Shown in pieces: positions 24,530 through 28,495 of a stretch of DNA of 32,257 nt. The notes below the pieces were generated by a model. The model was not told the origin of the DNA and made no database searches. It worked only from the letters and a program-made list of their open reading frames with translations. This stretch comes from Planctomycetes bacterium HGW-Planctomycetes-1 (lineage in GTDB: Bacteria; Planctomycetota; Phycisphaerae; Sedimentisphaerales; UBA12454): positions 1-32,257 of the forward strand of contig PGYD01000011.1 in the NCBI GenBank assembly GCA_002839495.1, in the 5' to 3' direction. The position numbers were made by a program, and so were the translations under genes. Positions within the stretch are counted from its first letter, which is position 1. Every line of letters starts with the position of its first letter.

Positions 24530-24536
24530 TTTTTTT

Positions 24537-24567
24537 AGCCACAGAGAACACAGAGGTCACAGAGAAA
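24537..24567 (+). repeat. Left inverted repeat of the CACAGAG element
   Basis: The 31 bases begin AGCCACAGAG and contain two further CACAGAG units. They match the reverse complement of 25050-25080 at 28 of 31 positions. The repeat starts eight bases after the pabB stop codon and ends four bases before the enclosed ORF. Confidence 0.9.
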
Positions 24568-24571
24568 AAAT

Positions 24572-25048
24572 ATGAAACAATGTATCGATATAACAGAGTT
24601 TGTGAAAAATAATCCTCGAAATGGCGATATTATATCATTTAAAATTAGCCCAATTAGGGAATCGGGATATAGCTTTTGCTGTTGTTCAAATTGTTTGCGG
24701 GAATTTTGGATGTCTGTAAATAAAAAGATTTCTCCGCAAGGGCCAATCGAACATGAAGGTTCAGCCATAATAAATTTTCAGAATGAAAAAATAATATTAG
24801 AGCAGCATGAAAGCGGTCCGGAATTAATTGCTTTTTTAATTTCTTTAAGTGCAAATTTTGTGCATGATTTTGCTAAATGGTTATTCTTAAATTCGGTTAG
24901 TGCTTTTCAGAAGAAAGGAGCAACAAAAATAAAACTTACAAGGAAAATAATAACTACGAAAAGAAAAACGGTTGATGAGTCTACTTTAGAAGTAGATGTT
25001 AAAAATATAACTGGAGTAGATAAAGTTATATCTGATTTTTTAAAATAA
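24572..25048 (+). CDS. Hypothetical protein inside an inverted-repeat cassette
   Basis: The 158-residue protein is unknown to me. It has a cysteine cluster FCCCSNCLREFW (C36, C37, C38, C41) that could bind metal, a hydrophobic segment around 80-115 (ELIAFLISLSANFVHDF), and a basic section at about 117-135. The ORF is markedly AT-rich compared with pabB and pabC. It fills the space between two 31-base inverted repeats: the start is four bases after one and the stop one base before the other. It has no clear ribosome-binding site apart from GAG inside the repeat. The arrangement suggests a compact mobile or cargo unit inserted in the pab operon in the direction of transcription. Confidence 0.6.
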   Translation: MKQCIDITEFVKNNPRNGDIISFKISPIRESGYSFCCCSNCLREFWMSVNKKISPQGPIEHEGSAIINFQNEKIILEQHESGPELIAFLISLSANFVHDFAKWLFLNSVSAFQKKGATKIKLTRKIITTKRKTVDESTLEVDVKNITGVDKVISDFLK

Positions 25049-25049
25049 G

Positions 25050-25080
25050 TTTCTCTGTGTCCTCTGTGAGCTCTGTGGCT
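25050..25080 (-). repeat. Right inverted repeat of the CACAGAG element
   Basis: Reverse complement of the left repeat with three mismatches. A further short CTCTGTGGC copy follows at 25095-25103 just before pabC, which may provide part of its translation start region. I saw no clear target-site duplication. Confidence 0.9.
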
Positions 25081-25109
25081 ATAATAAGAAAAAACTCTGT
25101 GGCGGAAAT

Positions 25110-26000
25110 ATGAATAAAGTTTTTTTGAATAACGAAATAATAGAAAGCTCTGCGGCTTCGATAAGCGGCGCTGACGGCGGGTTTTTGTATGGAGCAGGAC
25201 TGTTCGAGACTATGCGGGCATCGAATGGAGTGGTTTTTGCTCTCGACGGCCATCTCGATAGGCTTTTTACGAGTGCAGAAAAACTAAAAATCAATCTGCG
25301 AGGCGACCCGCCCAAGGGCGAGGTCTCGCCTGCGGCGGATAAAGAATTTATCGCTGATGCGATTTACCAGACATTAAACGCCAATGAGTTCAAAGAAGCA
25401 CGAATCCGTCTTACCGCTACAAGCGGGGTGGTAAATACTGAGCAGCCTGAGCCGACGCTGCTTGTTACCGCTGTAAATTTCGAGCCTTATCCGAAGGAAT
25501 ATTACGATAAGGGAATTACGGTTGTATTAAACTCTTACAGGCAGAATCCCGCCGATGTTTTGGCGGGCCATAAGACGACAAGCTATTTTTCGAGAATATA
25601 CGCTCTGGCCGTCGCTCATCAAAAACTTGCGGCTGAAGCCCTGTGGTTCACAATCGACGGCAGACTTGCCGAAGGATGTATAAGCAATGTATTTATTGTA
25701 AAAAATTCAGTCCTTTACACGCCTTCGCTCAAAGCCGGTATACTGCCGGGGATTGCCAGAAAGACGGTTTTAGAAATTGCCGGCAAAAATTCGATAAAAG
25801 CAGAAGAAAAAGAGCTTACTATTGACGACCTGCTCGGCGCTGATGAAGTTTTTATTACGAATGTTATTATGCAGGTAATGCCGGTGATAAAAATCGAAGC
25901 GCACGATATCAAAGATGCCAAACCGGGACAGATTACGAAAAAAATAGCCGCTCTTTATACAGAGCATTTCAACAAAGAGGTGCAAAATGTTAAGAGTTAA
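25110..26000 (+). CDS. pabC: Class IV aminotransferase, probably 4-amino-4-deoxychorismate lyase
   Basis: The fold is that of PLP-dependent class IV enzymes: GGFLYGAGLFETMRA at the start, the likely PLP lysine in AGHKTTSYFSR near residue 152, GRLAEGCISNVFIV and a C-terminal ITNVIMQVMPV. Linkage to pabB suggests the lyase that releases p-aminobenzoate and pyruvate, although branched-chain or D-amino-acid aminotransferases share the fold. The length of 296 residues is slightly longer than usual. Codons 66-77 (DPPKGEVSPAAD) are encoded by a 32-bp palindromic element and probably form an extra surface loop. The gene overlaps the next one by 14 bases. Confidence 0.82.
   Translation: MNKVFLNNEIIESSAASISGADGGFLYGAGLFETMRASNGVVFALDGHLDRLFTSAEKLKINLRGDPPKGEVSPAADKEFIADAIYQTLNANEFKEARIRLTATSGVVNTEQPEPTLLVTAVNFEPYPKEYYDKGITVVLNSYRQNPADVLAGHKTTSYFSRIYALAVAHQKLAAEALWFTIDGRLAEGCISNVFIVKNSVLYTPSLKAGILPGIARKTVLEIAGKNSIKAEEKELTIDDLLGADEVFITNVIMQVMPVIKIEAHDIKDAKPGQITKKIAALYTEHFNKEVQNVKS
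25307..25338 (+). repeat. Palindromic element, copy 1 (in pabC)
   Basis: 32 bases: CCCGCCCAA, GG, GCGAGGTCTCGCC, TGC, GGCGG. Inner GGCGA/TCGCC and outer CCGCC/GGCGG arms pair. It is read as DPPKGEVSPAAD. Confidence 0.9.
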
Positions 26001-27123
26001 GGATTGCATAGACAAAATCGAGAAGATTGCTCCGCCGAAACTTGCGCAAGGCTGGGACAATACCGGTTTGCTTGTTGGCGACAGTGATGCAGTGGTTAAA
26101 AAAACCCTGCTGACGATTGATATAACAAAAGACGTTGTAAAAGAGGCGAAACGTACCGGCTGTAATTTTATTATAAGTTATCATCCGGTTATCTGGGACG
26201 GCTTGAAGGCTATTGCCAAAGATTCGATTGTTTATGAGCTTGTAAAAAGCGGAATTAGCGTTTATTCGATACATACGGCTCTTGACGCGGTCGTCGGCGG
26301 GGTAAATGACGGCCTTGCCGAGATTGTCGGAATAAAAAATCCTAAGCCTGTCGGCGATTTTGTCCAAAGCGGGCCCGCCCAAAAGCGAGGTCTCGCCGAA
26401 GGCGGACAAAATAATTATAAACTTATTGTTTTCGTTCCTGTCGAATCGCTGCAGGAAGTTGCCGACGCTGTTTTCAAGGCCGGTGCCGGCTGGCTCGGAA
26501 ATTACAGCCATTGCAGTTTCAGCTCGGCAGGTCTTGGAACGTTTTTCCCGCTCGAAGGGGCAAAGCCTGCAATCGGGAAAAAGGGAGAATTTGAAAATGT
26601 TGAAGAAATTAAGTTTGAATCTATTGTGCCCTCTGAAAAAATAGCAGATGTCGTAAAGGCTATGAAAGCCGCCCATCCTTACGAGATGCCTGCCTTTGAC
26701 GTGATTAAATTATATGATATTGAGGACAAAATCGGTCTTGGCAGAATCGGGCTTCTCAAAAAGCCGATGCAGTTGAGCGCAATTCTCAAGAAAATCAAGG
26801 CTGCCACCGGCGCCAAGGCGGCTGGAATAGTCGGACCTAAAAAACGGCTCGTTAAAAAGGCCGCTGTTTGCGCAGGCTCGTGCGGAAAGCTGATAATGAA
26901 CGTTATTGCTGAAAAATGCAACCTGTATTTAACGGGCGAAATAAAGCATCATCAGGCTATCGCAGCGCAGGAAGCAGGGGTTACGGTCGTTTGCCTAAGC
27001 CATACTGTTTCGGAAAGATTTATCCTTAAAAAAGTTGCAAAAGAGCTACAAAAAAGCCTAAAAGATGTTAAAATCCTCGTCAGCAAAAAAGACAAGGACC
27101 CCTTTGAATGGAACAGGATATGA
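25987..27123 (+). CDS. Nif3-like dinuclear metal-centre protein with inserted PII-like domain
   Basis: Family members (YbgI, YqfO, Nif3) form hexamers with a two-metal site; some are annotated as GTP cyclohydrolase I type 2 homologues, and the function is debated. Metal-site segments are ISYHPVIWDG and SIHTALDAVVGGVNDG in the N-terminal half and GEIKHHQAIAAQEAG plus CLSHTVSER in the C-terminal half. The insert at about 145-250 (KLIVFVPVESLQEVADAVF) is the PII-like domain found in the long form, and 378 residues fits that form. Residues 130-140 (GPAQKRGLAEGG) come from the palindromic element and lie in the linker before the insert domain. It overlaps pabC by 14 bases and scpB by 16. Confidence 0.92.
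   Translation: MLRVKDCIDKIEKIAPPKLAQGWDNTGLLVGDSDAVVKKTLLTIDITKDVVKEAKRTGCNFIISYHPVIWDGLKAIAKDSIVYELVKSGISVYSIHTALDAVVGGVNDGLAEIVGIKNPKPVGDFVQSGPAQKRGLAEGGQNNYKLIVFVPVESLQEVADAVFKAGAGWLGNYSHCSFSSAGLGTFFPLEGAKPAIGKKGEFENVEEIKFESIVPSEKIADVVKAMKAAHPYEMPAFDVIKLYDIEDKIGLGRIGLLKKPMQLSAILKKIKAATGAKAAGIVGPKKRLVKKAAVCAGSCGKLIMNVIAEKCNLYLTGEIKHHQAIAAQEAGVTVVCLSHTVSERFILKKVAKELQKSLKDVKILVSKKDKDPFEWNRI
26374..26405 (+). repeat. Palindromic element, copy 2 (in the Nif3-family gene)
   Basis: As copy 1 but with AA in place of GG and GAA as the variable triplet. Flanking ATTTTGTCC (26357-26365) and GGACAAAAT (26404-26412) add a 9-bp perfect outer stem at this site only. It is read as GPAQKRGLAEGG. Confidence 0.9.
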
Positions 27124-27758
27124 CGGAAGAAACGGAATTGACAGATGTTTCGCAGGAAGGTTTAGCCGATGCCGGTACGGCGTCGAGTATTTCCTCGCAG
27201 GAGATAACCACCGAATCGGTAATTGAAGCGATACTCTTTGCTTCTGATGAGCCGCTCTCGGCTGACAGGCTCGTCAATATCGCCGAGTTTAACCCCGCCC
27301 AAGGGCGAGGTCTCGCCAGCGGCGGAGGCAGCGTGAAACAGGTTAAAAAATGTATTGAAACGCTTAACGAACAGTATGCCCAAAGCGGCAGGGCGTTCAG
27401 AATCGAGGAAATCGCGGGCGGTTTTCAGATGATGACGCTGCCTGAATATAATAACTGGCTCAAGAATCTGCTCCGCCAGCGTGAGGATAGTAAGCTTAGC
27501 CCGGCTGCGCTCGAGACTCTTGCCATTATCGCATATAAGCAGCCGATTATAAGGGCCGATGTGGAGGCGATTCGCGGCGTTGCCTGCGGCGAGATGCTCC
27601 GCTCTCTTATGTATAAAGGTCTGGTAAAAATTGTCGGCAAGGCCGAGGTCCTCGGCAGACCGCTGCTTTACGGCACAACCAAAAAATTCCTCGAAGTCTT
27701 CGGATTAAAGGACTTAAAAGACCTTCCAAAGGCAGAAGAACTCAAGCAGCCCGACTAG
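27108..27758 (+). CDS. scpB: Segregation and condensation protein B
   Basis: ScpB works with ScpA and SMC in chromosome condensation and partition. The tandem winged-helix domains begin at ESVIEAILFASDEPLSADRL (about 37-56), and the second includes LSPAALETLAIIAYKQPI, the most conserved ScpB block, and RADVEAIRGV. The length of 216 residues is normal. An ATG at 27120 is an alternative start. Residues 63-74 (PAQGRGLASGGG) are encoded by the palindromic element and fall in a loop of the first winged helix. scpA is not in this window; the gene overlaps its upstream neighbour by 16 bases. Confidence 0.95.
   Translation: MEQDMTEETELTDVSQEGLADAGTASSISSQEITTESVIEAILFASDEPLSADRLVNIAEFNPAQGRGLASGGGSVKQVKKCIETLNEQYAQSGRAFRIEEIAGGFQMMTLPEYNNWLKNLLRQREDSKLSPAALETLAIIAYKQPIIRADVEAIRGVACGEMLRSLMYKGLVKIVGKAEVLGRPLLYGTTKKFLEVFGLKDLKDLPKAEELKQPD
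27294..27325 (+). repeat. Palindromic element, copy 3 (in scpB)
   Basis: Identical to copy 1 except for the variable triplet AGC. It is read in the same frame as copy 2 (PAQGRGLASGG) and in a different frame from copy 1. Confidence 0.9.
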
Positions 27759-27884: not shown

Positions 27885-28236
27885 GGGGGCGAAAGGCTTC
27901 GACCGGACGGGTAGATAAGTAAACTGCATATCCAGGATGTCGGTTGGCCTGGCTAATCATCCGGCACAAATTTAATTGGCAACTACCAATTAAGAATGGC
28001 TGCCTAATTTAGGCGGTCCGTCCTGCGGAATCGCTCCCGCCGGTTTCGCAAGGGCGCCAAAATGCGGGACAGCTCTGCAAGGCGGTTCGTCCGAGCAGAG
28101 TTAAAAAACTACGAACTGGCCGAGACGTAAGCCTGTTATTCGGCGGACGGCTCGGCGAGAACCAAACGAATAACTAAATATGTAGAAGTTTACTTTGAAA
28201 CGTTTCGGGACGCGGGTTCGAATCCCGCCGCCTCCA
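27885..28236 (+). ncRNA. ssrA: Transfer-messenger RNA (tmRNA)
   Basis: tmRNA rescues stalled ribosomes and tags their products for degradation. The 5' end GGGGGCGAAAGGCTTCGACC pairs with the 3' end CGCCTCC as a 7-bp acceptor stem (one G-U), and GCGGG-TTCGAAT-CCCGC (28212-28228) is the T-arm. The discriminator is A28236; CCA is not encoded. The likely tag is at 27978-28007, reading GNYQLRMAA and then TAA, and the stop codon lies in the loop of a GCCT/AGGC stem as expected. Where the resume codon begins is inferred from the frame and the Ala-Ala end. The length of 352 bases is normal for a one-piece tmRNA. Confidence 0.95.
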
Positions 28237-28495
28237 ATTTTCGCTCGGAGAATGTTGACGGCAGATGATAAGAAAAAACCGTAAAATAACCGGGACTGAC
28301 AGAACGAATCCTTGACTGCAAAATCAAAAAATACAGTATTTACCCCAAGGTACTTTCATAGTTAAATATACAATTTTGTAGATTGGCATATAAAAATATA
28401 CAATATTGTAGACAACTCAAAAACCTTTATTTTAATAGATTTCTTATCTGCGTTATGATAAGAGACTTATGTATTCTTTCGTATAAAATAAAATA
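28237..28495. other. AT-rich regulatory spacer upstream of the type III glutamine synthetase gene
   Basis: No gene is supported here. The stretch holds the two palindromes at 28369-28410 and a half-like ATACAGTATTTAC at 28331-28343. No terminator with a T-run follows tmRNA clearly; transcription may end in the A/T-rich sequence. Confidence 0.5.
28369..28410. promoter_or_regulatory. Twin palindromic sites, candidate enhancer for the sigma-54 promoter
   Basis: TACAATTTTGTA (28369-28380) and TACAATATTGTA (28399-28410) have centres 30 bases apart, about three helical turns. Their surroundings agree too: AAATATACAAT, T or A, TTGTAGA. They lie about 147 and 117 bases before the predicted sigma-54 start, the usual distance for activator sites. 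They do not match the enterobacterial NtrC consensus. Confidence 0.65.

Follow-up and report, generated by a model that had tools for sequence, protein, structure and literature searches.

Three neighbouring genes of Planctomycetes bacterium HGW-Planctomycetes-1 carry the same short palindrome in frame, which raises the question of what this repeat is and how it came to lie within coding sequence. The window, i.e., the whole stretch of DNA analyzed here, comprises 32,257 nucleotides (assembly GCA_002839495.1, contig PGYD01000011.1, positions 1-32,257, forward strand) of a genome of 1.83 Mb in 167 contigs. To judge from the sequence, the repeat looks like a very small mobile DNA that is tolerated by working proteins.

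A 33-bp unit in three neighbouring genes

The unit is 33 bp or 11 codons long and has the form CCCGCC-nnnn-GGCGAGGTCTCGCC-nnn-GGCGGA. The exact pattern matched three times in the window (Table 1), where none was expected (100 shuffles). An earlier note on this DNA had described three 32-bp copies; all of them are found where it placed them, but the unit is 33 bp long, because alignments with empty sites put the final A inside the insert. What the note called two variable bases and a free triplet are indeed variable, but the former are half of a four-base loop and the latter is a second loop. Its translations, PPKGEVSPAAD in pabC and PAQ(K/G)RGLA(E/S)GG in the Nif3-family gene and scpB, were reproduced, and neither the pattern search nor a covariance model revealed a fourth copy in the window, as it had claimed. 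The name pabC is that of the note; the Pfam family is Aminotran_4.

Table 1. Features of the window (positions count from its first nucleotide).
Feature	Position	Strand	Remarks
Inverted repeat, 38 nt	24530-25087		87% complementary; brackets the 158-aa ORF
ORF, 158 aa	24572-25048		no Pfam match
Host gene pabC (Aminotran_4)	25110-26000	+	Pfam E 1.7e-55
33-bp element in pabC	25307-25339	+	frame F2, read PPKGEVSPAAD
Host gene Nif3/DUF34	25987-27123	+	Pfam E 1.6e-70
33-bp element in Nif3-family gene	26374-26406	+	frame F0
Host gene scpB (SMC_ScpB)	27108-27758	+	Pfam E 9.7e-55
33-bp element in scpB	27294-27326	+	frame F0
tmRNA gene	27885-28239		

If the copies of this genome were evenly scattered, the chance of finding three of 20 within 2 kb would be about 0.004. 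No other trio among the 560 of the same genome has left loops as alike as these (CAAG, CAAA, CAAG), and loops are in general slightly more alike within genomes than between them (87 of 2000 permutations were as low). Two other features border the three genes: just upstream of pabC, the inverted repeat with its enclosed ORF looks like an inserted cassette, and just downstream of scpB lies a tmRNA gene.

Copies and their hosts in this and other genomes

The genome-wide search proposed in the earlier note did return further in-frame copies in unrelated genes. With model R1, at least 20 distinct places were found at E values up to 0.08, a lower bound, as scoring covered 150 of the 1205 first-look candidates. 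Of the 20 copies, 17 fall within long open frames that Pfam supports. Besides Aminotran_4 (pabC), Nif3, and ScpB, the hosts are DsbD-like, Lnt, an ABC ATPase, a KBL-like aminotransferase, a PAS protein, RtcB, a deoxyhypusine synthase-like protein, DNA_pol3_delta2, FtsK, a frame with HNH, AP2, and ABC matches, AlaS, a TPR protein, GATase_5 (PurQ-like), and LptD. At the three remaining places (two tandem copies on contig C55 and one on C97), no supported gene was found. Here and below, gene names follow from Pfam hits; KBL, ThiL, LysS, RluD, AddA, and PurQ are names that we take to apply, Pfam giving the superfamily only. AlaS has a single strong match in this genome, in a frame that is open for 956 codons. 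Seven of the coding copies lie on the coding strand and ten on the opposite one; therefore, insertion is not sense-only.

At E values not above 0.01, the element occurs in at least 15 of the 161 genomes of the order (this one included), which belong to two families and reach up to 18 matches per genome; owing to stricter filters, these order-wide counts are lower bounds. An exact scan of a genome collection gave 26 stretches, 25 of which are titled Phycisphaerae, Phycisphaerales, Sedimentisphaerales, or planctomycete, and one Omnitrophica; viral contigs gave none. The copy in the Omnitrophica WOR_2 contig (L194, 6665-6700) lies beside a frame that is presumably metK-like and reflects either transfer or mis-binning. 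In genome G077, two copies with starts 77 nt apart share one frame with UvrD_C and PDDEXK_1 matches (C45:62457-62569, L096), and a repeat-like stretch also lies between them. In open-licence papers, we found no description of such repeats in Phycisphaerae or Sedimentisphaerales.

In total, 77 places were collected. One (G065, C307) was dropped, and 12 of other length or register or from a tandem duplicate as well as three identical ones were left out to give an alignment of 61 rows. The flank analysis used 69 copies (8 of 77 left out), and the target analysis 65 (12 left out, including one orthologous site and three longer or composite inserts).

Filled and empty sites

Orthologues from related genomes were aligned to the window genes. 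For pabC, the alignment has a gap of 33 nt in 12 of 13 relatives. The thirteenth, G006 of the same genus (L123), carries at the identical position a different palindrome of 30 nt or 10 codons (CCTGCC...GGCAGG), indicating that the pabC site was hit twice. A search of 40 genomes gave an exact match to this palindrome at a single place; five further matches with one or two mismatches look like chance and were rejected. The nif3 gene lacks the element in all 12 aligned relatives (a 33-nt gap in ten, 30 nt in two), and scpB lacks it in all 13 (33 nt in nine, 36 or 39 nt in four).

We then removed the exact 33-mer and aligned the joined flanks to each relative, counting a site as gapless when no gap fell within 15 bases on either side. 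Gapless relatives were 10 of 13 for pabC, 8 of 12 for nif3, and 8 of 13 for scpB. For the 14 coding copies of this genome outside the window, empty sites were sought with one chimeric query; ten of them show 33 nt (KBL and RtcB partly as split gaps), the PurQ-like gene shows 33 nt plus an unaligned stretch, and the TPR protein gave no clear insert length. Longer inserts were found in AlaS (48 nt, L054), LptD (about 60 nt, L058), and, outside this genome, a PfkB-like gene (45 nt, L108), and these look like merged hairpin units. Outside this genome, empty sites were sought for 19 of 57 collected copies. Whole alignments gave seven clean single 33-nt gaps (ThiL, a TsaD-domain protein, ScpA, ADP-ribosylglycohydrolase, and PlsY in G077; LysS in G003; an SDR protein in G034), three cases with split or other gaps nearby but 33 nt in sum (MurD, RluD, and MlaE in G009), one insert of 45 nt (PfkB), and eight unresolved cases.

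In the flank-only test, 15 of 17 coding copies of this genome (the exceptions being AlaS and LptD) and 13 of 19 from other genomes were gapless in at least one relative, 28 of 36 in total; the other eight were not resolved as 33-nt insertions. Counting only single 33-nt gaps in whole alignments gave 13 of 17, 7 of 19, and 20 of 36, respectively. Some pairs share little identity (0.56 over 120 bases at the lowest), so that we regard 20 of 36 as the secure lower limit. As far as sequence comparison goes, these alignments show that related genomes either have or lack the element as a whole 33-bp unit, without target-site duplication. The clean 11-residue insertion relative to homologues bears out the earlier suggestion of a protein-coding palindromic mobile element.

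Insertion target

The sites follow a preference that is not strict: CNNR^Y precedes and follows the junction in 24 of 65 copies, against 3.8 expected. Taken singly, C stands at -4 in 36 of these copies, a purine at -1 in 54, and a pyrimidine at +1 in 55. The model used for collecting spans two bases to the left and one to the right of the unit and so biases the target mildly; the empty sites agree, however, with C in 14, a purine in 16, a pyrimidine in 15, and all three in 10 of 19 (one relative each). Fourteen copies lie in no frame of 140 aa; of these, only 3 have C at -4, and all 14 have the pyrimidine at +1.

Target-site duplication was rejected, as flank repeats of one, three, and four bases are near chance and empty sites gain 33 nt only; repeats of two bases number 10 against 4.5 expected (shuffle maximum 12). 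The flanks are not palindromic, and no pairing rule between loops and target was found (the lowest of 44 tests gave 0.009). The 5' flank often resembles the 3' end of the element, CGGA being the commonest 4-mer (7 of 69 copies). Several empty targets (TAAC^G, CATC^A, CAAA^T) are unlike the element.

Reading frames and tolerance by the host proteins

The fixed letters are free of stops in all six frames, and owing to this and the length of 11 codons, the host gene stays open. In this genome, the 17 coding copies use three frames, namely F2 (PPxGEVSPxAD) in 4, F0 (PAxxRGLAxGG) in 3, and R0 (SAxGETSPxGG) in 10. The probability that three of six frames hold 17 of 17 copies by chance is about 1.5e-4, with 20 choices taken into account. 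In the FtsK copy, the loops are swapped, and the core reads RRDLA. The 13 outside copies with gapless empty sites use the same three frames in nine cases, F1 in two (SDR and a glycosyltransferase, G034), and R2 in two (PlsY in G077, a CoA enzyme activase in G079). Arg-rich frames are found in 4 of these 13, which counts against frame selection. Frame choice is a tendency and not a rule. The repeat being read in several frames, we agree with the earlier note that DNA identity is conserved and not a protein motif.

The note had also expected all sites to fall in loops or linkers. This may hold for ScpB, whose weak model places the insert between two helices as a coil of low confidence, but hardly for AlaS, where it splits a conserved segment, WSFGD-YFK, that also occurs in a cytoplasmic alanyl-tRNA synthetase with a solved structure (5knn). 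In RtcB, the insert coincides with an alignment gap to solved homologues. The structure predictions are weak (mean pLDDT 56.6 for ScpB from 24 sequences and 54.5 for AlaS from 12), and that of AlaS gives no information on the insert.

Two possible folds of the strand

Across 51 canonical copies, loop positions are close to random (1.67-1.85 bits), and all other positions stay at or below 0.58 bits, although the parsing pattern by itself favours conservation of the stems. Inner and outer arms nested in one palindrome had been proposed for this sequence. Energy supports this, the nested fold being the lower one for the common form, and so does pairing, with 96.2% of cells paired against 88.8% for two tandem mini-hairpins. 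The latter value is lowered by pair 2-15, which is not formed in 55 of 61 copies; without pairs 1-16 and 2-15, only 14 of 549 cells fail. Covariation, on the other hand, favours the double hairpin. Among the 61 distinct copies, its 11 pairs contain 13 cells with two-sided changes, where shuffles give 2.2 (none of 500 reached 13), whereas the nested fold, on which the collecting model was built, contains 5 against 2.2 (19 of 500 as high). By two other measures, namely how many pairs changed on both sides (4) and how many pair types occur, the nested fold nevertheless lies above every shuffle. Given 13 against 5 two-sided changes, we rejected the nested palindrome as the sole structure; both folds may be in use.

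How the element may spread

We consider it probable (about 0.72) that the element is a non-autonomous mobile palindromic repeat whose folded strand is transposed by an enzyme acting in trans. One strand would switch between two mini-hairpins (CGCC-nnnn-GGCG and CGCC-nnn-GGCG) and a single long nested hairpin, and the enzyme would recognize the stems, cut, and rejoin. Selection would then purge most insertions in Arg-rich frames and at intolerant sites, and local hopping would explain why three neighbours in one gene cluster have near-identical left loops. Several of the results above tell against this explanation: the lower energy and the higher pairing of the nested fold, the scarcity of C at -4 in copies that lie in no frame of 140 aa, the Arg-rich frames outside this genome, the eight of 36 copies not resolved as 33-nt insertions, and the lack of a pairing rule between loops and target.

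HUH/Y1 transposases act on hairpin substrates, recognize a short target 5' of the insertion, and generate no duplication. In view of these habits, a single-strand transposase of this kind (IS200/IS605- or RAYT-like) is our tentative candidate, a guess from anatomy and not from linkage. Genomic distribution lends no support to a Y1 transposase as an obvious partner, as it does not track the element. Y1_Tnp occurs in 138 of 159 genomes of the order; it is absent from G003 (97% complete) and G065 (89% complete), each with two element matches, and G077, with 18 matches, has one weak Y1_Tnp match. Five loci around the Y1 matches of this genome (about 3.2 kb) contain no element. Neither the distribution across the order nor these loci revealed an enzyme for the element. 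It is possible, though doubtful, that a site-preferring system of planctomycetes with an enzyme of its own moves differing hairpin units (33 and 30 nt) to the same targets, a length divisible by three and frames free of fixed stops being an adaptation to essential genes.

Other explanations share some of this evidence. Recombination or template switching between pre-existing short GC-rich palindromes would need no dedicated enzyme and could account for the CGGA-like 5' flanks and for the longer inserts (48, 45, and about 60 nt) that resemble merged hairpins. It is nonetheless unlikely, since several empty targets do not resemble the element and the same precise unit was seen in 28 of 36 copies. 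Spread through RNA, either by reverse splicing of element RNA into mRNA or by reverse transcription and recombination into the genome, has been suggested for yeast GC clusters, and PMC4478555 discusses RNA-mediated spread of GC42. The hairpin structure and the common orientation in three neighbouring genes would suit it, but the strand split of the coding copies makes it rather improbable.

The strong conservation of the stems might also reflect a protein motif or a regulatory site under selection that does not move; however, with differing frames, both strands, unrelated proteins, and close orthologues that lack the element, this is very hard to maintain. An assembly or binning artefact is the least credible explanation: the named records with the element are metagenome bins, but the same element and the same empty-site behaviour recur in independent projects and in two families. 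Assembly error, which the earlier note had named as a possible refutation, is likewise contradicted by contigs from several independent projects that carry the element. We therefore retain transposition of a folded strand in trans as the preferred reading.

Comparison with known systems

An in-frame palindrome in unrelated genes, absent from homologues, is what defines a protein-coding palindromic element in the general sense, and this describes the repeat. It differs from the named families. Its ends are CCCGCC and GGCGGA, no GTAG consensus emerges from the 12 bases that flank it, the five Y1 loci of this genome contain no adjacent copies as would a RAYT gene of GTAG REPs, and the consensus shows neither the CGTC end nor the 8-9 bp stem with a 4-5 base loop of CGTC REPs. 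The gapless junctions (28 of 36) do not show the target-site duplication of DDE-type MITEs. To our knowledge, the small dispersed repeats of cyanobacteria resemble the element in being very short and mobile with no known enzyme.

Rickettsia palindromic elements (RPEs) are described in PMC10969869 and PMC3767692 as dispersed palindromes that are tolerated in frame in unrelated genes, which is the likeness to our element. By the same descriptions, they are set apart by a length of 100-150 bp (PMC3767692) against 33 bp here; moreover, all rickettsial orthologues are reported to share the insertion locus of RPE-4, RPE-6, and RPE-7 (PMC10969869/PMC3767692), whereas here congeners are empty. According to PMC3733652, GTAG and CGTC REPs are 20-40 bp palindromes, some of which lie within ORFs, among them those of tRNA synthetases and repair genes, and CGTC REPs (8-9 bp stem, 4-5 base loop) have no known transposase, as is the case here. 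Most REPs, according to this source, lie between genes and are single stems tagged at one end by GTAG or CGTC; in contrast, our element has neither tag but two variable loops, and 17 of 20 copies in this genome are genic. Yeast mitochondrial GC clusters such as GC42 (PMC4478555) are short GC-rich hairpins with variable loops, conserved stems, and merged composites, and thus share the loop/stem contrast and the merged units. They are organellar, mostly intergenic, and use an AG target, whereas the element is bacterial, often coding, and prefers CNNR^Y.

Coding palindromes as such are already known from RPEs and intragenic REPs; what we rate as new is the combination of two variable loops, an 11-codon unit, a target preference, and resolved empty sites. 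Such palindromes have been known since Rickettsia; in the present case, relatives with filled and with empty sites can be compared nucleotide by nucleotide, and the genes concerned include alaS, scpB, rtcB, and ftsK. This makes it testable what moves such tiny repeats and at what rate proteins gain ready-made linkers from selfish DNA.
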